From Paracidovorax avenae ATCC 19860 (GTDB lineage Bacteria; Pseudomonadota; Gammaproteobacteria; Burkholderiales; Burkholderiaceae_C): a stretch of 64,000 bases of DNA. The stretch covers positions 3,534,001 to 3,598,000 of the forward strand of contig NC_015138.1 in assembly GCF_000176855.2 (NCBI RefSeq). The letters are read 5' to 3'. Positions 3,488 to 64,000 of this stretch are shown here, one piece after another. Each line of letters begins with the position of its first letter. Position 1 is the stretch's first letter. The notes beneath the pieces were generated by a model. The model saw only the letters and a program-made list of their open reading frames with translations. It did not search any database and was not told the origin of the DNA. The translations under genes were made by a program, and so were the position numbers.

Positions 3488-4957
3488 TTATCGGGGCTCG
3501 GCAGCGCCCTGCCCGGCCGTGGCGGCGCCGCTTCCCTCCATCCAGGAGGCCTGCCAGCCGCCGCCCAGGGCCTGGATGAGCGATGCCACCGCGAGCTGGC
3601 GGTTCACCTGCAGCTGCAGCAATGCGCGCCGCGCCGACAGCGCAGCCACCTGGGCGGTGACCACGTCGGTATAGCTCACCTGCCCGGCGCGGTAGCGGTT
3701 GAGCATCTGCTCCTCCGTGCGCTGGGCGGCCGAGACGGCCTCCTGCCGCAGCGGCTCCTGCGCCTGCAGGGTGCGCACCGCCGTGAGCTGGTCTTCCACC
3801 GTCTGGAAGGCACCGAGCACCGTCTGGCGGTAGTTGGCCACGCGCGCGTCGCGGGCCGCGCGTGCCTGGTCCACGCGCGCGGCGATGGCACCGCCGTCGA
3901 ACACTGTCTGCGCGGCCGACAGGCCCAGCGACCACAGCGCACCGGAGGCGCTGAACAGGTCACCCAGGCTGGTGCCGCTGCGCCCCAGGGAGGCCGTGAG
4001 GCTGAAGCTGGGGAAATAGGCGGAGCGCTGCACGCCGATCTGCGCGTTGGCGGCGGCGACGGCGCGTTCGGCCGCGGCGATGTCCGGGCGGCGCTCGAGC
4101 AGGGTCGAGGGCAGCGCCGCAGGCACCGCGGGCACGCTGGCCACCCAGGTGCCGGCAGGCAGGCTGAATGCGGCCGGCGGCTGGCCGGCCAGCACGGCGA
4201 TGGCGTGCTCGTAGCCGGCACGGTTGCGCTGCGCGGTGGCGAGGTCGGCGCGGGCGTTGGCGAGCTGGGTGCGCGCCTGCAGCACGTCCGACTGCGCGGC
4301 CACGCCGGCGTCGTAGCGGTTCTGGGCGATGCGCAGGGCGCGTTCGTAGGCCTGCACCGTGTCGCCCAGCAAGGCGGCCTCGGCATCCGCCTCGCGCAGC
4401 TGGAAGTAGGCGGCCACGAGCGAGCCCACGGCGGAGAGCCGCGCCGCGGCCAGGTCCGCCTCGCTCGCCTGGGCACTGGCGCGGGCGCTGTCCACGGTGC
4501 TGCCCAGGCGGCCCCACACGTCCGGCGCCCAGGTCGCGCCCAATGCCGCCTGGGTAGTGGTGCCACGGCGCGCGGAGCCCTCGCCGCCCGCGCGGCTCTC
4601 GCTGGCCGACAGGCTCACGCCAGGCAGCAGCCCGGCGCGCTGCTCGCGCACCAGCCCCTGGGCCTGGGCATAGGCGGCCACGGCAGCGGCGATGTTCTGG
4701 TTCGATACCTGCACCTGGGCGGCGAGGCGGTTGAGTTCCTCGTCGCCGAACAGCGTCCACCAGTCGCCGCGGTCGGCGGCGTCGGCGGGCGCGGCCGGCT
4801 GCCAGAGCGCGCCCGCCTCCTTGAAGGCGGTGGGCATGGGGGTGGCGAGCGCCGGGGGCTGGTAGGGCGGCGCGACCGAGCAGGCGGCCAGCCAGGCCGG
4901 CAGCAGCGCCGCGGCGCAGGCGCGCAGCATGCGCGGGGTGGAAGGATCGAAGGTCAT
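3488..4957 (-). CDS. RND efflux outer-membrane factor lipoprotein (OprM/NodT type)
   Basis: This 489-residue outer-membrane channel belongs to the TolC/OprM superfamily. It has a signal peptide with a lipobox ending in LAAC, and the following region SVAPPYQPP is typical of NodT-family lipoproteins. Two outer-membrane efflux domains of long heptad-like helices follow. It should form the exit duct for the pump encoded just upstream. The ATG at 4957 overlaps the mdtC stop in an ATGA junction, which fixes the start although the frame stays open far upstream. As the last gene of mdtA-mdtB-mdtC-omf it completes a self-contained tripartite pump, unlike E. coli MdtABC, which borrows TolC. Confidence 0.93.
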   Translation of the reverse strand: MTFDPSTPRMLRACAAALLPAWLAACSVAPPYQPPALATPMPTAFKEAGALWQPAAPADAADRGDWWTLFGDEELNRLAAQVQVSNQNIAAAVAAYAQAQGLVREQRAGLLPGVSLSASESRAGGEGSARRGTTTQAALGATWAPDVWGRLGSTVDSARASAQASEADLAAARLSAVGSLVAAYFQLREADAEAALLGDTVQAYERALRIAQNRYDAGVAAQSDVLQARTQLANARADLATAQRNRAGYEHAIAVLAGQPPAAFSLPAGTWVASVPAVPAALPSTLLERRPDIAAAERAVAAANAQIGVQRSAYFPSFSLTASLGRSGTSLGDLFSASGALWSLGLSAAQTVFDGGAIAARVDQARAARDARVANYRQTVLGAFQTVEDQLTAVRTLQAQEPLRQEAVSAAQRTEEQMLNRYRAGQVSYTDVVTAQVAALSARRALLQLQVNRQLAVASLIQALGGGWQASWMEGSGAATAGQGAAEPR

Positions 4958-39814: not shown

Positions 39815-41404
39815 ATGCACATGGAAAACTTCGCCCCGATCATGTTCGCGGGGCTGATCGTGATCATGCTGATCGGCTTTCCGGTCGCGTTCTCGCTCGC
39901 GGCCCTGGGCCTGTTCAGCGGCTTCTTCGCCATCGAGATGGGCTGGTTCCCGGCCAACTTCATGGCCAACCTGCCGATCAACATGTTCGGCATCCTGTCG
40001 AACGACCTGCTGCTGGCCATCCCGTTCTTCACGCTGATGGGCGCGGTGCTCGAGAAATGCGGCCTCGCCGAGGACATGCTCGACTCCATGGGCCAGCTCT
40101 TCGGCCCGGTGCGCGGCGGCCTGGGCTACTCGGTCATCATCGTGGGCTTCATCCTGGGTGCCATCACCGGCACCGTGGCCGGCCAGGTGATCGCCATGGC
40201 CATGATCTCGCTGCCCGTGATGATGCGCTACGGCTACAACATGCGCTATTCCACCGGCGTGCTGGCCGCCTCGGGCACCATCACGCAGCTGGTGCCGCCC
40301 TCGCTGGTGCTGATCGTCATGGCCGACCAGCTCGGCCGCTCGGTGGGCGACATGTACAAGGGCGCCTGGGGCCCGGCCATCCTGCAGGTGCTGATCTTCG
40401 CGATCTACACCTTCATCCTGGGCCGTATCCGCCCCGAGTACGTGCCCGGCCTGCCCCGCACCGCGCGCACGCTGCACGGCTGGGCCCTGTGGGGCAAGTG
40501 CCTGCGCGGCATCATCCCCTCGGCCATCCTGATCTTCGCGGTGCTCGGCTCCATGGGGGGTTTGCCGTTCATGGACCATGCCATCGCCACGCCCACCGAG
40601 GCGGGCGCCATGGGCGCCGTGGGCTCGCTGATCCTTGCGGCCATCCACAAGCGCCTGACGTGGCAGCTCATCAAGGAAGCCATGGACGGCACCATGCGCC
40701 TCACGGCCATGGTGGTGTTCATCCTGATCGGCTCGCGCGTGTTCTCGCTGGTGTTCCAGGGCGTCGATGGCGCCATCTGGATCGAGCACATGCTCACCGA
40801 CCTGCCGGGCGGCCAGATCGGCTTCCTGATCGTCGTGAACATCTTCATCTTCTTCCTGGCGTTCTTCCTCGACTTCTTCGAGATCGCCTTCATCATCCTG
40901 CCGCTGCTGGGCCCTGTGGCGCACAAGCTGGGCATCGACCTCGTGTGGTTCGGCGTGCTGCTGTGCGTGAACATGCAGACCAGCTTCATGCACCCGCCCT
41001 TCGGCTTCGCCCTCTTCTACCTGCGCGGCATCGCCGACACGCTCTTCAAGGAAAAGCGCATCGACCGCCCGGTGAAATCGAGCGACATCTACATGGGCTC
41101 CATTCCCTGGGTGGTGATGCAACTGATCCTCGTGGGCATCGTGATCTTCTTCCCGCAGACCGTGACCATCTTCCTCGACAAGGAAAAGGTGGTCGATCTG
41201 GACAAGGTGCAGCTCGACATGCCCGCGGACAGCTCGGCGGAACCGTCCATCAACATGGACGACCCCTTCGGCACGGGCAACAAACCCGCTGACGGTGCCT
41301 CTGCGGCCCCGGGCGCGGAGCCCGCCATGCCGGTGCCGGAACCGATGCCCGAGCCGGCGACGCCGGAACCCGCGCCGGAAGGCGCAGCCAGCACCCCGCA
41401 ATGA
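39815..41404 (+). CDS. dctM: TRAP transporter large membrane subunit (DctM)
   Basis: This 529-residue permease has about twelve helices. Conserved motifs include NDLLLAIPFFTLMGAVLEKCG, TGTVAGQVIAMAMISLPVM, VPPSLVLIVMADQLG and HPPFGFALFYLRGIADTLF. The last 65 residues are an unusual Pro/Glu/Ala-rich cytoplasmic tail (MPVPEPMPEPATPEP) not needed by the family. It uses the sodium gradient to import the ligand handed over by DctP. It lies between dctQ and a small membrane protein gene that it overlaps by an ATGA junction. Confidence 0.92.
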   Translation: MHMENFAPIMFAGLIVIMLIGFPVAFSLAALGLFSGFFAIEMGWFPANFMANLPINMFGILSNDLLLAIPFFTLMGAVLEKCGLAEDMLDSMGQLFGPVRGGLGYSVIIVGFILGAITGTVAGQVIAMAMISLPVMMRYGYNMRYSTGVLAASGTITQLVPPSLVLIVMADQLGRSVGDMYKGAWGPAILQVLIFAIYTFILGRIRPEYVPGLPRTARTLHGWALWGKCLRGIIPSAILIFAVLGSMGGLPFMDHAIATPTEAGAMGAVGSLILAAIHKRLTWQLIKEAMDGTMRLTAMVVFILIGSRVFSLVFQGVDGAIWIEHMLTDLPGGQIGFLIVVNIFIFFLAFFLDFFEIAFIILPLLGPVAHKLGIDLVWFGVLLCVNMQTSFMHPPFGFALFYLRGIADTLFKEKRIDRPVKSSDIYMGSIPWVVMQLILVGIVIFFPQTVTIFLDKEKVVDLDKVQLDMPADSSAEPSINMDDPFGTGNKPADGASAAPGAEPAMPVPEPMPEPATPEPAPEGAASTPQ

Positions 41405-41895
41405 CGGACCATGGACTGCCCCCGCCCGGCAACGGCGGGGCCGCCATCGACATCGAAAGCGCCGCCTTCCCGCCCCTGGTGCGGCTGCTCGCCGTGGCCA
41501 TCGTGGGCGGGCTGGCGGCCTTCGCGCTCTGGTCCATCCCCGCGCTGCGCAGCGCGCAATGGACCTTTCCGGCCCTGGCGACCTTCGGCCTCGCGGCCGT
41601 GCTGATCGGCTGGATGGGCTGGTGGATGGTGTTCAGCCGCACGCGCTTTTCCAGCGAAGACGGCGGCGTGATCGTGCAGACCTGGCTCTGGGACAAGCGG
41701 GTGCGGGCGGCCGACGTGGCGAGCTTCAAGATCGTGCACTGGCCATGGTTCCGTGCCGTGATCGCGCCGCGCATCCTGCTGCGCCGCAAGGGCGGAGGGA
41801 TCACGTGGGTGCATGCGGCGGATGCGGGGGTGCTGGTGGCGTTCGGGGAGAGTGTGGTGAGGGTGGGGGCTGGGGCTGTACCCCAATCACGCTGA
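41401..41895 (+). CDS. Hypothetical membrane protein coupled to dctM
   Basis: This 164-residue protein has two hydrophobic helices (VRLLAVAIVGGLAAFALW and LATFGLAAVLIGWMGWWMVF), then a compact C-terminal domain of the bacterial PH-like kind (RFSSEDGGVIVQTWLWDKRV). The ATG overlaps the dctM stop by four bases, so it is translated with the TRAP genes and may be an accessory factor. The last 35 codons switch from C-ending to G- and T-ending codons (GGG, GTG, GCG, GAT, AGT), just before the 700-bp palindromic element that begins 21 bp after the stop. The function is unknown. Confidence 0.7.
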   Translation: MTDHGLPPPGNGGAAIDIESAAFPPLVRLLAVAIVGGLAAFALWSIPALRSAQWTFPALATFGLAAVLIGWMGWWMVFSRTRFSSEDGGVIVQTWLWDKRVRAADVASFKIVHWPWFRAVIAPRILLRRKGGGITWVHAADAGVLVAFGESVVRVGAGAVPQSR

Positions 41896-41915
41896 CGGAT
41901 GTGGTGACTTCCGGA

Positions 41916-42615
41916 GCCGGGATTTCGCCCCGGCGGGCGAGTCACTTTCTTTCGCTTCGCCGAAAGAAAGTAACCAAAGAAAGGGCGACCCTGCTGGATG
42001 CGACCCCGTTTGCCCGCAGGGCGAACGGGGCAACCTGGGGTGCTCGGGGGTGGGGTGTGCCGTGGAACTCGCTTCGCGCTGCGCGCTACGCTCGGACAAC
42101 CACGGCAAGTCAGTTCACGAAGCGGACGTGTCCTGCGGCACGCCCGCCACCCCACCCCCTGCGCGCCCCAAGCGCATCCAGAAGGGGTGATCCGGGCCTT
42201 CGCGTTGCTCGGCCCCAAAGCCTTCGCTGCGCTCGGCAAAAAACCCAACGCTCCGCTCCAAGGAAAACGGTGCGCGGTGCGTAGCACTCGCGCACCCCAG
42301 GCCGAGCGAAGCAATGGCCCGTGTGCTGCCCCCCGCCCTCGTGGCTGCGCCGAGGAGCGCAGGGCGCGGGGCGGGCAGGCGTGCCGCAGGACACGCCTGC
42401 TTCGTGATCTGGCTCGCCGTGGTTGTCCGAGCGCAGCGCGCAGCGCGAAGCGAGTTCCACGGCGCCGCCCCGCGACCGAGCACCACAGGCTGCCCCCTTC
42501 GCCCAACAGGGCGAAGGGGGACGCAGACACCAGGGCTCGCCTTTTCTTTGCCTACTTTCTTTTGGCGAAGCAAAAGAAAGTAGGTGCGCCGCCGGGCGCA
42601 CATCCCGGCCCCGGG
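41916..42615. repeat. 700-bp palindromic element, copy 1
   Basis: This non-coding stretch fills almost the whole gap between the stop at 41895 and the dctP stop at 42704. Left and right halves are imperfect inverted copies of each other, with arms of about 300 bp around an apex at about 42215-42299. Each arm is itself made of hairpins: 41944-41971 (11-bp stem ACTTTCTTTCG, loop CTTCGC), 42493-42520 (12-bp stem CCCCCTTCGCCC, loop AACA) and 42552-42583 (12-bp stem CTACTTTCTTTT). The apex hairpin at 42269-42296 has stems GGTGCGCG and GTGC with loop GTA. The second copy at 61965-62662 is alignable over its full length. Open frames crossing it are by-products of high GC. Confidence 0.9.
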
Positions 42616-42703
42616 AAAAAACCACCCCCAAAAAAAGAAAAAAGGCGACCCCAAGGCCGCCCCAAAGAAACACGCAGCTTCTTCTTGTACCCAGCCAACC
42701 CGC

Positions 42704-43783
42704 TCAGAGCTTCTGCGCCTGCATGAACCGGTCGAACGTCCCTTCCGTGAACCGGAACCACGCGTTCTCGTCCGCCAGGAACTTCGCGTAGTCCGTATAG
42801 ACCTTCTTCCACTCCGGATTGGTATTGTTCAGGTCCGCATAGATCTGCTGCGCCGACTTGAACGCCGCATTCATCACATCCTGCGTGAACGGCCGCAGCT
42901 TGGTGCCCGAGCCCACGAGCTGCTTGATCGCCACGGGGTTGCGCGCGTCGTACTTGGACAGCATCGTGACGTGGGCGTGCGAGGCGGCAGCCTCCACCAC
43001 GGCCTTGTATTCGGCCGGCAGGCCTTCCCAGGCCTTGGTGTTGATGTAGAAGTCCAGCTGCGGGCCGCCTTCCCACCAGCCGGGGTAGTAGTAGAACGGC
43101 GCGACCTTGTTGAAGCCCAGCTTCTGGTCGTCGTACGGGCCCACCCACTCCAGCGCGTCGATCGTGCCCTTCTCCAGCGCGGGATACAGGTCGGCGCCGG
43201 GGATGGATTGCGGGATCACGCCGAAGGGTTCCAGCACCTTGCCCGCGAACGGGTTGGTGCGGAACTTCAGGCCCTTGAGGTCGGCGACGGACTTGATCTC
43301 CTTGCGGAACCAGCCGCCCATCTGCGCGCCCGTGTTGCCGCCGGGGAAGCTGATGATGTTGTACTTGGCGTAGAACTCGCGCATCAGCTTCAGGCCGTTG
43401 CCCTCGTACATCCACGCGTTCATCTGCCGCGCGTTCAGGCCGAAGGGCACGGCGCAGCCGAGGCAGAACGTCGGGTCCTTGCCGTAGAAGTAGTAGGGCG
43501 CCGTGTGCGCCATCTCGACGGAGGCGTTCTGCACGCCGTCCACCACGCCGAAGGCCGGCATCAGTTCGCCGCCGGCATGCACCGAGATCTGGAACTTGCC
43601 GCTGGTGGCTTCGCTGACCTTCTTGGAGAACACTTCCGCCGTGCCGTAGATGGTGTCCAGCGATTTCGGGAAGCTGGACGCAAGGCGCCAGCGGATGCTG
43701 GCCTGGGCGTGCACAGCGGGGGCTGCGCCGGCCGCCAGCACGCCGGCGATGCCAGCGTGCCTGAGGATGGAACGACGATCCAT
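42704..43783 (-). CDS. dctP: TRAP transporter substrate-binding protein (DctP)
   Basis: This 359-residue periplasmic receptor has a twin-arginine-type signal (MDRRSILRHAG then GVLAAGAAPAVHAQ). Mature motifs such as RLASSFPKSLDTIYG, QNASVEMAHTAPYYFYGK and GGWFRKEIKSVADLKGLKFR match the FcbT1/TakP group, which binds 2-keto acids or aromatic and sugar-acid ligands and often dimerises. The ATG at 43783 is chosen for GGAGAC just upstream and because it starts the signal peptide. It converges on dctQM across the palindromic element; normally the three genes are co-oriented in one operon. Confidence 0.92.
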   Translation of the reverse strand: MDRRSILRHAGIAGVLAAGAAPAVHAQASIRWRLASSFPKSLDTIYGTAEVFSKKVSEATSGKFQISVHAGGELMPAFGVVDGVQNASVEMAHTAPYYFYGKDPTFCLGCAVPFGLNARQMNAWMYEGNGLKLMREFYAKYNIISFPGGNTGAQMGGWFRKEIKSVADLKGLKFRTNPFAGKVLEPFGVIPQSIPGADLYPALEKGTIDALEWVGPYDDQKLGFNKVAPFYYYPGWWEGGPQLDFYINTKAWEGLPAEYKAVVEAAASHAHVTMLSKYDARNPVAIKQLVGSGTKLRPFTQDVMNAAFKSAQQIYADLNNTNPEWKKVYTDYAKFLADENAWFRFTEGTFDRFMQAQKL

Positions 43784-44007
43784 GGATGGGTCTCCGGTAA
43801 TGATTTGCGAGCGAACGGCCGCGGGGCTCCGGATCACGGGGCGGCCGGGACGGACTGTTTCAGCCGGAAACGATTGTAGGAATGGGCCACTCCGGCCCGT
43901 TGGGGGTTTTCCCGCGAAAGAAAAACACCGCGCGCACGGCACTCAGCCTTCTGCAAGCTTGCCGCGCGCTCCGGGCCCGGCCGTGCGGCCGGGCGCCCTG
44001 CAGGACA

Positions 44008-59694: not shown

Positions 59695-60452
59695 GGCGCC
59701 ACCACCTGCCAGGTCCTGACCCCGGCCGTCGCCGGAATGCCCACCGCCGCAGGGGCCAGGGGCACGGGCGGCGGCGGCAGGTACAGCGCCGCGTCGGCCT
59801 GGTCGATGAAATAGACGTCGCTCGTGCGGGCCAGGTAGCGGCCTTCGCTCTCCAGCGAAGTGGTGACCAGGATTTCGGTACGCGCCGGCACGCGCACCAG
59901 GCCCTGCGGCGTGGAACGCGTGGCCGCAGGCACCAGCACCGGCTGCGCCGCCAGCAGGTAGTCGCCGTTTTCCATGGAGGCATCCCGCGCCACGCGCACG
60001 CCATCGCCGAGCAGCACCGGCCGCGCGCCGTCGCCGGGCGGCGCCACGTGCTGCACGAGCTGGACGTCCACGGCGAGCCGCACGCCGGAAGGCTGCGTGG
60101 ACAGCGCCAGGCCGCGCTCGACCAGGTGGGTGATCAGCAGCGTCCGGAAGCCAGCGACGAAGCCGGGCACGTCCGGGCCATCGGACGCCGGCACCACGTA
60201 GATCGGATGCGCTCCCGCGGGCCATTCGCGCAGCTTCACGGCCGTGCGCTCCGCGACGTCCGCGGCCAGTACGTCCCAGTGGTGCACGGCCCGTGCCGTC
60301 TTCTGCGTGGACGGGGCGTGCGCCACCGGTTGCGGCAGGTCCGCAGGCGCCGCGCAGCCGGCCAGCCCCGCAGCGCACAGCAGCACGGCCGCCAGCGCCG
60401 GAGCGCTCCGGCGGGCGTTCGAAAACGGCGGAAATTCCGCAACGGGGGTCAT
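59691..60452 (-). CDS. Lipoprotein, probable FlgO/FlgP partner
   Basis: This 253-residue protein has the lipobox AAGLAGCAA at the end of a hydrophobic signal. The mature part has the pattern of FlgO-related or TolB-N-like lipoproteins (TLLITHLVERGLALSTQ, VRLAVDVQLVQHVAP, TEILVTTSLESEGRYLART). The ATG at 60452 is preferred because GGAAAGG lies upstream; an earlier ATG at 60479 has no ribosome site. It heads a two-gene unit with the FlgO-like gene. The precise function is not known. Confidence 0.65.
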   Translation of the reverse strand: MTPVAEFPPFSNARRSAPALAAVLLCAAGLAGCAAPADLPQPVAHAPSTQKTARAVHHWDVLAADVAERTAVKLREWPAGAHPIYVVPASDGPDVPGFVAGFRTLLITHLVERGLALSTQPSGVRLAVDVQLVQHVAPPGDGARPVLLGDGVRVARDASMENGDYLLAAQPVLVPAATRSTPQGLVRVPARTEILVTTSLESEGRYLARTSDVYFIDQADAALYLPPPPVPLAPAAVGIPATAGVRTWQVVAP

Positions 60453-60640
60453 GCGCTCGCACCTTTCCTCGGAATGCATGGCTGGATGCTAACGGCCGCG
60501 CGCCCGGCGAATGGGCGGAACAACGGCGCTTTCCCTGCCCAGTCCGGCGCCTGTTCGTCCCCGCCGACGGCGCCCCGCCGATGCCATGGCCGGGTGCCCG
60601 CCTACGCCCGCACGGGCTCCGGCCACGCCACAATCCGCGC

Positions 60641-61945
60641 ATGCAGCTTTCCGCCCCCGCCCCGGACTCCCCGCCCGACACCACCGCCACGCGTGCCTCG
60701 GCACCTCCGCCCGCGGGTGACCCGCCTGCCGAACCACCGCCCGCCGGGGACCCACCGCCGACCTCGCCCCCTGCAGGCGACCCGCCCGCGCCGCCTCCCG
60801 GCCCGGCAGAGCCTCCACCGCCGCCCACGGACGCATCGCCGCCGTCCCCCTTCGTGCTGCAGATGCCCGTGGACGTGCGCAACCTCTCGCTCGCCCTGCT
60901 GGCTCTCTTCGCCGCCGTGGCCCTGCTGCACTGGGCCAGCGCCGTCTTCATTCCGCTGATGCTGAGCGTGCTGCTCACCATCGCACTCCAACCCATCGTG
61001 ACCGCGCTGCGGCGCTGGTACATCCCGCGCTGGCTCGGCGCCGGTGTGCTGCTGCTGGGCATCGTGGGCGGCCTCGGCGGCACGGCCTGGTCGCTCTCCG
61101 ACGGCGCGGCCGAGCTGGTGGACTCCCTGCCCGTCGCCGCCCGCAAGGTGCGCGATGCCATGCGCATGAACATGCGCGGACCGAGCCCGCTCGACACCAT
61201 GCAGAAAGCCGCCAGCCAGATCGAGCAGGCCGCCACCGAAAGCATCCCGCCCCAGACGCGGCGGGGCGTGCAGCGCGTGGTGATCGAGCGCGCGCCCTTC
61301 AACATCCGCGATTACGTATGGACCGGCACCATGGGCCTGGTATCGGCCGCCGGCCAGCTCACCGTGGTGGTCTTCCTCACCTTCTTCTCGCTCGCCTCGG
61401 GCAACCTCTTTCGCCGCAAGCTGGTGCGCATCGCGGGCCAGAGCCTCGAGCGCCGCAAGATCACCATGGAAGTGCTCGACGACATCACCGGCCAGATCCA
61501 GCGCTACCTGCTCGTGCAGGTGGCCACCAGCGTGCTGGTGGGCATCGGCACCGGCGTGGCCTACGCGCTGCTCGGGCTGGAGAACGCGGCCGTCTGGGGC
61601 GTCGTGGCCGGCGTGCTCAACCTCGCCCCGTACGTCGGCTCCATCGTCGTCACGGGCGCCTCCGCCCTCGTCGCCTTCCTGCAGTTCGGCACCGTGGACA
61701 TGGCCCTGGCCGTCGGCGGCGCCTCCCTGCTCATCCACACCATCGTGGGCAATCTGCTCACCCCGTGGCTCACCAGCCGCACCAGCCGCATGAGCCCTGT
61801 CGCGGTGTTCGTCAGCGTGCTGGCCTGGGGATGGCTGTGGGGGCTGTGGGGGGTGTTGCTGGGGATTCCGGTGATGATGGTGGTGAAGGCGGTGTGCGAC
61901 CGGGTGGAGGATTTGAGGCCTATCGGGGAGTTGTTGGGGGATTGA
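60641..61945 (+). CDS. AI-2E-family permease with Pro-rich N-terminus
   Basis: This 434-residue membrane protein of the AI-2E transporter family (PerM/TqsA-like) has about eight helices. Motifs are VFIPLMLSVLLTIALQPIV, GVVAGVLNLAPYVGSIVV and WGLWGVLLGIPVMMVVKAV. Before helix 1 there are some 75 residues of Pro-rich repeats based on PPAGDPP. CACAAT at 60629-60634 ends 6 bases before the ATG, so the transcript may be leaderless; no ribosome site is present. The last 35-40 codons change abruptly to G- and T-ending codons. The solute is unknown; members include sodium/proton antiporters and AI-2 exporters. Confidence 0.85.
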   Translation: MQLSAPAPDSPPDTTATRASAPPPAGDPPAEPPPAGDPPPTSPPAGDPPAPPPGPAEPPPPPTDASPPSPFVLQMPVDVRNLSLALLALFAAVALLHWASAVFIPLMLSVLLTIALQPIVTALRRWYIPRWLGAGVLLLGIVGGLGGTAWSLSDGAAELVDSLPVAARKVRDAMRMNMRGPSPLDTMQKAASQIEQAATESIPPQTRRGVQRVVIERAPFNIRDYVWTGTMGLVSAAGQLTVVVFLTFFSLASGNLFRRKLVRIAGQSLERRKITMEVLDDITGQIQRYLLVQVATSVLVGIGTGVAYALLGLENAAVWGVVAGVLNLAPYVGSIVVTGASALVAFLQFGTVDMALAVGGASLLIHTIVGNLLTPWLTSRTSRMSPVAVFVSVLAWGWLWGLWGVLLGIPVMMVVKAVCDRVEDLRPIGELLGD

Positions 61946-61964
61946 TTTTTTTTGGGGTGCGGGG

Positions 61965-62662
61965 GCCGGGTCTCGCCCCGGCGGGCGAGCTACTTTTCTT
62001 TGCTTCGCCAAAGAAAAGTAGCCAAAAGAAAGGCGACCCTGCTGGATGCGACCCCGGTCGCCCGAGAGGCGAACGGGGCAACCTGGGGTGCTCGGGGGGG
62101 GGGTGCCGTGGAACTCGCTGCGCGCTTGCGCGCTACGCTCGGACAACCACGGCAAGTCAGTTCACGAAGCGGGCGTGTCCTTCGGCACGCCCGCCACCCC
62201 CCCCCCTGCGCGCCCCAGGCGCATCCAGAAGGGGTGACTCGGGCCTTCGCGTTGCTCGGCCTCCAAGCCATCGCTACGCTCGGCCAAAGCCCCGGCGCTC
62301 TGCCCCAAAAAAACGGTGCGCGGTGCAACGCACTCGCGCACCCCAGGCCGAGCGAAGCAATGGCCCGTATGCTGCACCCCGCCCTCGTGTCTGCGCCGAG
62401 GAGCGCAGGGCGCGGGGCGGGCAGGCGTGCCGCAGGACACGCCTGCTTCGTGAACTGACTCGCCGTGGTTGTCCGAGTGCAGCGCGCCAGCGCGAAGCGA
62501 GTTCCACGGCGCCGCCCCGCGACCGAGCACCGCAGGCTGCCCCCTTCGCCCCTCCGGGGCGAAGGGGGTCGCAGACACCAGGGCTCGCCTTTTCTTTGCC
62601 TACTTTCTTTTGGCGAAGCAAAAGAAAGTAGGTGCGCCGCCGGGCGCACACCCCGGCCCCGG
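61965..62662. repeat. 700-bp palindromic element, copy 2
   Basis: This 698-bp element lies between the stops of the AI-2E permease (61945) and the FUSC gene (62670). It aligns along its whole length with copy 1 at 41916-42615. Hairpins at matching places include 61990-62021 (13-bp stem CTACTTTTCTTTG, loop CTTCGC), the CCCCCTTCGCCCC stem with loop TCC near 62539-62567, and the apex 62315-62342 (loop AAC). Stem bases differ from copy 1 but pairing is kept. Both outer ends are followed by T-runs read outward to inward, and homology continues into the 3' ends of both flanking genes. Confidence 0.9.
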
Positions 62663-62669
62663 AAAAAAA

Positions 62670-64000
62670 TCACCCCAACAACTCCCGCGCAGCCCCCTCG
62701 ATCACACCGATCTGCCGGCACACCAGCGCCAGCTGCGTCTGCAGAATCCGCAACGTCTCCGCCGACACCTCCCCCGCACCACCATCCCCTCCCAGCGCCA
62801 TGGCATCCGCCGCCTGCTCCAGCGCGGCCGCCAGCGCCTGCGCGCGTCCGGCATCCTCCAGCGCCGCGCCTTCCTGGCGGCGCAGTGCCGCCGCCAGAGA
62901 CTCCAGCCGCTCGGCCGCGTGCGCCCCGGCCTCCTGGGCCAGGTCCGCGGCAGGGCCCGCAGGCCCCGCCCGGTGCGCGCCCAGGGCGGAGAGATAGCTC
63001 AGCAAGGTGTGCGAAGCCACCAGCATGCGCATGCCGGCCAGCGAATGCGAGCGCACGTGCCGCGGCTCCTGCAGCAGGTGCGAGAGCGTGGTGGAGAACG
63101 CCGCATCCGCGTTGTGCGCATTGCGCCGCGCGAGCCGGTAGTCCAGGTCGTCGGCCTTGCCGGTGGCGTACTGCGAGAGGATCTCGCGCAGGTAATGGGC
63201 ATGCGCGGCCAGGGCCTGGGCCGCCACGGCTGCCAGGCGGCGGCCCTGCCAGTCCGGCAGCACCCACAGCATCGCCACCGCGGCGATGGCGCTGCCGATC
63301 ATCGTGTCCAGCAGGCGCGGCAGGATCAGCCCGTGCGCCGCGCCGGTGGCCTGGTTGAAGCACATGAGCACCAGCAGCGTGATGGCCGCCGTGGCCGTGA
63401 GGTAATGGGTGGTCCGGGTGACGAAGAACAGCACCCCCGCCGCCACCGCGAAGAGCGCCTGCAGCGGCAGGCTCGGGAACAGCCGCAGCAGCGCCCAGCC
63501 CACGACCAGGCCGACGGCCGTGCCGGCGATGCGCTGCGCCACGCGCGCCAGGGTCGCGCCGTAGGTGGGCTGGCACACGAACAGCGTGGCCAGCGGAATC
63601 CAGTAGCCGTGCACGGGATCGATCAGCTGCATCACGCCGTGGCCCGCCGCCAGCGCCAGGGACAACCGCGCCGCGTGCCGGAACAGCGGCGAGCCGCGGT
63701 GCAACTGCGCCCGCACCCGGCCCCAGGCGTCGGCCAGCGAACGCGGCGAGCGGTCCAGCAGGCTGCTGTCTCCCACCCGCTCCCCGCCGTCGGGATGGGT
63801 CGCAGCGTCGAGCTGCGCATCGAGGGTGGCGAGGTTGCGCGCCAGCGCGCGCAGGCTGCGCAGGGGGCGTTGCCATTCGGTCCGGCCCTGGACTTCCAGG
63901 TAGGCGACCGCGTCGCGCAGGTCGGCCATGGCCCGCGCCACGGCACCGTCCCGCTCGAAGGGCTGGTGCATCTGCAGCGCCTGGGCGATGCGCGCGCATT
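62670..64000 (-). CDS. FUSC/YccS-family membrane protein (C-terminal part)
   Basis: The frame is open to the right edge (ARIAQALQ precedes the first internal Met), so the start lies outside; at least 443 residues are seen. A soluble N-terminal stretch precedes five or six helices of the fusaric-acid-resistance-like domain (HGYWIPLATLFVCQPTYGATLARVAQRIAG, then VGLVVGWALL and TATAAITLLVLMCF). A long cytoplasmic helical domain follows. These proteins resemble efflux pumps for aromatic acids but the substrate is unknown. The last 40 codons are G/T-ending, unlike the rest, and the gene ends ELLG within sequence matching the permease on the other side of the palindromic element. Confidence 0.85.
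   Translation of the reverse strand, partial: CARIAQALQMHQPFERDGAVARAMADLRDAVAYLEVQGRTEWQRPLRSLRALARNLATLDAQLDAATHPDGGERVGDSSLLDRSPRSLADAWGRVRAQLHRGSPLFRHAARLSLALAAGHGVMQLIDPVHGYWIPLATLFVCQPTYGATLARVAQRIAGTAVGLVVGWALLRLFPSLPLQALFAVAAGVLFFVTRTTHYLTATAAITLLVLMCFNQATGAAHGLILPRLLDTMIGSAIAAVAMLWVLPDWQGRRLAAVAAQALAAHAHYLREILSQYATGKADDLDYRLARRNAHNADAAFSTTLSHLLQEPRHVRSHSLAGMRMLVASHTLLSYLSALGAHRAGPAGPAADLAQEAGAHAAERLESLAAALRRQEGAALEDAGRAQALAAALEQAADAMALGGDGGAGEVSAETLRILQTQLALVCRQIGVIEGAARELLG

Follow-up and report, generated by a model that had tools for sequence, protein, structure and literature searches.

The window analysed here, a stretch of 64,000 nucleotides from the chromosome of Paracidovorax avenae ATCC 19860, contains two near-palindromes of about 700 bp. 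Re-reading of the sequence confirmed that both lie at the positions where an earlier note had placed them. The two copies, their parts and the adjacent genes are as follows; boundaries of the elements are profile boundaries, pseudoknot strands and terminal hairpins were read off the sequence, and R1 denotes a covariance model described below.

41401..41895, plus strand: open frame adjoining copy 1 on the left (164 aa, without a Pfam match) and directed at the element
41909..42618, no strand assigned: element copy 1, a centre with one outward-pointing unit on each side; genus site C, flanked by convergent genes
41941..41974, minus strand: copy 1 left-unit hairpin H1, loop 41957-41961 being GGCGA on minus
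41984..41988, minus strand: copy 1 left-unit pseudoknot strand a, TCGCC on minus
42025..42182, minus strand: copy 1 left core domain, three-way junction, R1 score 160.5 bits on minus and 17.5 on plus
42183..42339, no strand assigned: copy 1 centre between the core domains, including a long central hairpin
42340..42498, plus strand: copy 1 right core domain, R1 score 144.9 bits
42537..42541, plus strand: copy 1 right-unit pseudoknot strand a, TCGCC, which can pair with GGCGA at 42564-42568
42551..42584, plus strand: copy 1 right-unit hairpin H1 with pseudoknot loop
42585..42600, plus strand: copy 1 right-unit terminal GC hairpin H2, a terminal stem in the cross-genus alignment
42704..43942, minus strand: neighbour right of copy 1, DctP solute-binding protein gene, pointing toward the element
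60293..61945, plus strand: neighbour left of copy 2, AI-2E family transporter gene
61957..62666, no strand assigned: element copy 2; genus site D, between the convergent AI-2E transporter and FUSC genes
61989..62022, minus strand: copy 2 left-unit hairpin H1
62032..62036, minus strand: copy 2 left-unit pseudoknot strand a
62073..62229, minus strand: copy 2 left core domain, R1 score 151.3 bits on minus and 19.2 on plus
62230..62385, no strand assigned: copy 2 centre
62386..62545, plus strand: copy 2 right core domain, R1 score 146.5 bits
62585..62589, plus strand: copy 2 right-unit pseudoknot strand a
62599..62632, plus strand: copy 2 right-unit hairpin H1
62670..63971, minus strand: neighbour right of copy 2, FUSC family gene

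The left half of each copy had been described as an imperfect reverse complement of the right half, and a repeat search indeed detected inverted arms within both: 102, 81 and 52 nt in copy 1 (88, 79 and 75% complementary) and 110, 80 and 48 nt in copy 2 (87, 78 and 79%). The symmetry of copy 1 is far above chance, since its folds as RNA (−546 kcal/mol, z −27.6) and as DNA (−312 kcal/mol, z −23.6) both lie far below those of 20 shuffled sequences. The source of the symmetry is one stranded unit of about 290 nt that is present as two inverted copies per palindrome. In sequence terms two such units, set head to head, make up the palindrome, and the anatomy is well supported. As the whole element is an inverted pair, it carries the terminal inverted repeats expected of a MITE or an IS remnant; no protein of its own was seen in it.

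Two full-length copies had been reported, which holds for the window; the whole genome (one contig of 5482170 bp) has five, at 3351938, 3449883, 3575916, 3595965 and 3845372. The five listed copies span no more than 0.5 Mb and were all called in the same orientation both here (G000, 3.35–3.85 Mb) and in a second one-contig genome (G006, 3.56–4.04 Mb), whereas the copies of G008 are dispersed along the genome. Copy numbers and positions vary among species, which leaves little support for the proposed chromosome-architecture site, and we rejected this reading. In loci found by a core pattern, 49 of 56 pairs of neighbouring units were ordered (−)(+), that is outward, as opposed to the tandem arrays of BRE repeats; the others were (+)(+) in five cases and (−)(−) and (+)(−) in one each. 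Single units also exist: the 120 pattern-found loci comprised 45 outward pairs, 55 single units (some of them near the edge of the locus), six other arrays and 14 loci with no unit at the threshold. Across all loci 164 of 175 neighbours were (−)(+), most of these loci having been found by a two-unit query and some places fetched twice, and the same order occurs at three places in G631, a genome of another family. At L347, L356, L129 and G143:C1:187026-187866 further units or partial copies adjoin the outward pair, in rows of up to three units or more.

Read in the sense direction, the unit consists of a closing stem, a three-way junction, a linker, a hairpin (H1) and a terminal GC hairpin (H2). 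The long arm of the junction bears a conserved internal loop, TTGTYTGA / GTGAGTTC, and the loop of H1 can pair back to the linker to give an H-type pseudoknot. An alignment of 20 copies from six genera contains 185 pairs, 78 of them with double changes. Pair prediction on both strands from 50 copies yielded 216 pairs in which the left domain, the centre, the right domain and the end hairpins are separate, together with some stems joining the halves. The left and right domains are reverse-complement homologues, and 44 domain copies (23 right and 21 left) could be aligned in one orientation. Their 160-nt core is the three-way junction, with 45 pairs, 30 of which show compensatory double changes; 98.2% of cells are paired, compared with 83.5% after shuffling and at most 51.8% when the alignment is slid, and a large number of loop residues vary little or not at all.

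Departures from Watson-Crick pairing were counted in a strand-neutral set of pairs, predicted from both strands. With the left domain read on minus and the right on plus, G-U outnumbers A-C in the domains by 90 to 30 when each is counted once per column, type and genus, and by 35 to 11 by column, although nominal p-values of this excess overstate it because the sequences are related. In the stems outside the domains the ratio is 77:92 in alignment orientation. The strand-bias set was limited to 50 of the 94 aligned copies because most copies from the genus are ambiguous in orientation. The covariance model R1, built from copies other than those of the window, scored the four window domains at 145–160 bits in sense, and the two antisense matches reported reached 17.5 and 19.2 bits.

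The pseudoknot strands vary in sequence while remaining complementary: linker and loop read TCGCC:GGCGA, GCGCG:CGCGC, GCACG:CGTGC, CGCAC:GTGCG, CCGCC:GGCGG, TCGGC:GCCGA and others in single units. At least five consecutive Watson-Crick pairs are possible in 106 of the 114 units with a detected H1 (four of 118 segments were dropped, as H1 was not detectable, and several two-unit elements share a genome). Counting distinct linker/loop combinations, 76 of 83 have at least five such pairs, compared with a mean of 35.3 and a maximum of 46 in 2000 shuffles. Both local pseudoknots reach at least five pairs in 42 of 47 two-unit elements. In 17 of the 47 the strands of one half could not stand in for those of the other; in 12 of these both halves keep at least five local pairs, and four more keep at least four. 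The very long hairpin envisaged in the earlier note is preferred by the single-sequence fold, but the pairing best supported across genera lies within each half. We rejected a single hairpin of about 300 bp as the conserved structure because halves that differ in pseudoknot or stem sequence keep their local pairing. Covariation, pseudoknot and strand bias together support another suggestion of that note, that the element may encode a large structured RNA. By eye, linker and loop are likewise complementary in distant families among the matches listed. An element in Pasteurella multocida (L410:1100-1560, NZ_CP020346.1) has an architecture that looks alike by eye, with pseudoknot strands that differ between its halves; it sits between dapF and a DUF484 gene, and the record is labelled a plasmid, yet carries housekeeping genes. 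In one distant family (L246, G567) an open frame that by eye resembles an IS110-type transposase ends a few hundred bases ahead of a unit, a single case.

With copy 1 as BLAST query, 239 of 399 genomes of the family gave a match (two candidates scored per genome). All 17 genomes of the genus have matches. The covariance-model search of relatives that had been suggested found R1 matches in 212 of the 399 family genomes and 79 of 141 genera and, under strict filters, no match in the other 187. Beyond this, R1 matched nine of 274 genomes sampled from the class, and the seven outside the family were weak (E 2e-8 to 2e-4). Twelve chosen genomes contain 2 to 32 domain matches each, counting weak opposite-strand matches at the same places. 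Acidovorax, Pseudacidovorax, Delftia, Comamonas, Simplicispira, Rubrivivax, Rhodoferax, Aquabacterium, Ottowia and Ramlibacter are carriers among the matches listed. None of 50,697 phage records and five of 72,556 plasmid records matched copy 1 as a single, insensitive query, which is thin for an active mobile element. Rfam 15 gave no match at the gathering score in the window or in four further loci, and a loose threshold applied to seven loci returned chance matches only, none of them credible. Literature searches found no description of the element among the matches listed, and searches with sequence words were likewise without a match.

In order to define orthologous sites, 60 copies from the genus were fetched and compared by their flanks. 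Site A is occupied in 12 genomes, site B in 11, sites C and D in seven each and site E in five, other sites being rarer; A and B lie within runs of genes in the same direction, and C, D and E between convergent genes. Site A separates two ABC-transporter ATPase genes that we read as livG and livF from Pfam domains and gene order. A livG query placed the element between them in 12 of 17 genomes; in four the contig ends within the element right after livG, and in G009 (L155) a short remnant is left. At site B, between genes read as nirD and nasA, the order nirD-element-nasA occurs in 10 of 17 genomes. The contig ends in the element in G014, 150 bp without the element separate the genes in G009, only the right end remains, joined to other sequence, in G005 (L183), and four genomes have no nirD upstream of nasA. 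The remnant at site A of G009, left by a deletion, and the junction at site B of G005 look like traces of the repeat acting as a site of genome instability. The site D copy of G005 (L086:3047-5064) is split by about 1.4 kb of other sequence.

The copies at these sites appear to evolve in concert. A tree of the 50 near-full copies among the 60 (600–760 bp) groups them mostly by genome or near relatives, not by site. In the seven genomes with full copies at both A and B, identity between the two within a genome is 82.8–99.7% (the lowest value being that of G010), compared with a median of 78.3% (range 71.9–94.0) between different genomes at site A. A genome's own A-B identity is the higher in 39 of 42 comparisons with its A-A identity to another genome, although the sites are orthologous. 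Copies in draft assemblies could be misassembled repeats, and the compared set includes G000, G010 and G011, which are in one or two contigs. Homogenisation is incomplete, as G008, G013 and G016 hold two classes of copy.

Gene context was counted with one locus per genus site and duplicates removed, whereas the background gaps, taken from the same loci, include orthologous duplicates. Of the two-unit elements 90 were resolved (nine unresolved), 39 of them in convergent, 46 in tandem and five in divergent gaps, compared with 42, 283 and 97 among 422 background gaps; single units lie in 23 convergent, 20 tandem and three divergent gaps (46 resolved, eight unresolved). Copies thus favour the 3′ ends of genes. 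In tandem gaps single units showed no orientation preference in a small sample (nine sense, 11 antisense). The gene caller was checked on the known sites and was correct at all A, B and C loci, at four of seven D loci and at three of four E loci; at the three D loci that it got wrong the left gene had been overlooked, and these loci would drop out at the 500-bp limit. An initial count (15 convergent, 40 tandem, 27 divergent) was discarded because the caller had taken antisense frames as genes and misjudged known sites.

Empty sites, which the earlier note had advised mapping, exist: in G008 about 0.8 kb including the element part two genes that are 21–33 bp apart in G010, G011, G012 and G015. 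An insertion in the G008 lineage is most simply assumed, with loss in the four relatives as the alternative. By eye, no target-site duplication is evident against the four empty relatives, and the flanks carry another short repeat. This repeat, with TGATAGCT ... AAGCGCT-like blocks, adjoins the element at L054:2916-2997 and 3640-3715 and also in L161 and L157; at the G008 site inverted copies of it flank the element. Possibly it is a dispersed repeat in its own right, or else a piece of the inserted unit. At 24 loci from other genera, taken with 1.5-kb flanks, none of the proteins adjoining the genus sites turned up, save for a 38% identical ABC-ATPase stretch in L140. Placement in the gaps, the G008 site and the unshared sites of other genera together suggest that the element has relocated on rare occasions, into gene runs or gene ends or next to them. 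The empty site and the differences in sites between species and genera also speak for the non-autonomous mobile element that the earlier note had offered as a possibility.

We consider it probable, with some reserve, that the palindromes belong to a dispersed, non-autonomous element, that a structured RNA is the product maintained, and that recombination keeps the copies alike. Because it is folded, scattered through relatives and alike within each genome, the unit is a strong candidate for a new and apparently undescribed family of RNA-encoding repeat. The unit would act as an RNA made either from a weak promoter of its own or by read-through from neighbouring genes, and the folded RNA would be recognised by a factor of the host or of a mobile element; neither a promoter nor a mobilising enzyme was identified for the element. 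The element would be dispersed non-autonomously, new insertions being rare and most copies staying where they already are, near the 3′ ends of genes, with gene conversion between copies keeping them alike within a genome. Given two inverted units, transcription from either side would read one of them in sense, a possible reason for the frequency of pairs.

The preference for gene ends could also mean that the element works in cis, as a structure at mRNA 3′ ends that would mark or stabilise the ends of adjacent transcripts or insulate them, a role also proposed for REP-type repeats; it would be kept because the adjacent genes benefit from a protected 3′ end or from a block to converging transcription. 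The placement of both two-unit elements and single units would fit this, and so would the position of sites A and B inside one-direction gene runs. However, single units in tandem gaps were nearly balanced between sense and antisense in that small sample, the sequence after the right end of both window copies is A-rich and lacks the U-tract of an intrinsic terminator, the genus sites were not found at the 24 other-genus loci, and avoidance of promoters alone could yield the same placement. We regard this explanation as unlikely, if worth keeping. Less probable still is a trans-acting regulatory or protein-titrating RNA, that is, a set of multi-copy small-RNA genes binding a conserved protein through the TTGTYTGA/GTGAGTTC loop. 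The nearly invariant loop residues of the 44 core copies and the homogenisation within genomes, as in multi-copy RNA genes, would fit; the 187 family genomes without a match under strict filters, copy numbers and sites that differ between species and the lack of an identified promoter do not, and we hold this reading to be very doubtful.

An equally doubtful reading places the function at the DNA level: a giant REPIN-like hairpin, active as single-stranded DNA and mobilised in trans by a single-copy Y1 (RAYT-type) transposase. Each of the 17 genus genomes has exactly one Y1_Tnp match, RAYT homologues are found in 372 of 399 family genomes, and a GTAG or near-GTAG adjoins the terminal hairpins of the window copies, as in the GTAG-tagged REPs described in PMC3733652. 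Like REP, BIME and REPIN sequences, the element is intergenic, palindromic and depleted from divergent gaps, its units are inverted, no protein of its own was seen, and most of the genomes possess a RAYT-type gene. However, the tetranucleotide at the GTAG position varies among genera, and 11 of the 20 listed among the 27 family genomes without a RAYT match at E ≤ 1e-10 carry the core, including the one-contig genomes G283 and G345; a GTAG-tagged REPIN was rejected on these two grounds. The single-copy RAYT-type gene of the genome under study (L104:1462-2166, G000:C1:1096042-1096743), the one RAYT locus examined, has neither a copy of the element nor a repeat of its own within the surrounding 3.3 kb; the gene right after it is presumably glutamate-synthase-like. 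Moreover, units of about 290 nt in pairs of about 700 bp and in few copies, with a multi-helix junction and a pseudoknot, are unlike the 20–40 bp units of REPs (size from PMC3733652), and neither a covarying pseudoknot nor a sense-strand excess of G-U is expected of a DNA hairpin.

A different speculation, improbable in our view, is a selfish RNA, which would depend on a trans-acting enzyme either to be copied through an RNA intermediate or to guide recombination into the places it already occupies. Renewal of copies at fixed sites would then produce concerted evolution without frequent jumps. If true, the outward pair would put the RNA 3′ end at both borders with the target, and the element would be a bacterial counterpart of short non-autonomous retroelements, with no known partner. 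The guide RNA of a TnpB nuclease (omega RNA) was rejected, since the TnpB-type nuclease domain PF07282 is absent from all 17 genus genomes while six of 14 controls were positive.

Returning to the favoured reading of a dispersed RNA-encoding repeat, some described repeats come close. The excerpted description of bcr1–bcr18 from the Bacillus cereus group (PMC3446304) lists intergenic repeats, some with conserved secondary structure, about half of which are transcribed in UTRs, in operon gaps or alone. The present element resembles them as an intergenic interspersed repeat with conserved secondary structure, but it has another host, and that excerpt speaks neither of outward pairing nor of a pseudoknot; the two are set apart by description only. 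According to PMC3110155, BRE of Bordetella is a chromosomal repeat of Betaproteobacteria including Acidovorax and Delftia, lies within a small RNA locus, appears mobile-like and measures 75–91 bp in tandem arrays. Our element is larger and forms outward pairs; as the distinction is again one of description, BRE may share part of the unit. With the large structured bacterial RNAs of Rfam the element has in common its length, covariation, junction and pseudoknot; unlike them it is multi-copy, dispersed and mostly arranged in inverted pairs, and has no Rfam match.

If an RNA of this size that covaries and is present in about half of the family genomes sampled matches nothing in Rfam, RNA annotation would have a real gap. 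The outward inverted pairing illustrates that an RNA element can resemble a DNA palindrome and be dismissed as a MITE. The covariance model renders transcription, a binding partner and mobility directly testable, and fixed sites combined with homogenisation within genomes would make the element a natural system in which to measure gene conversion in bacteria.
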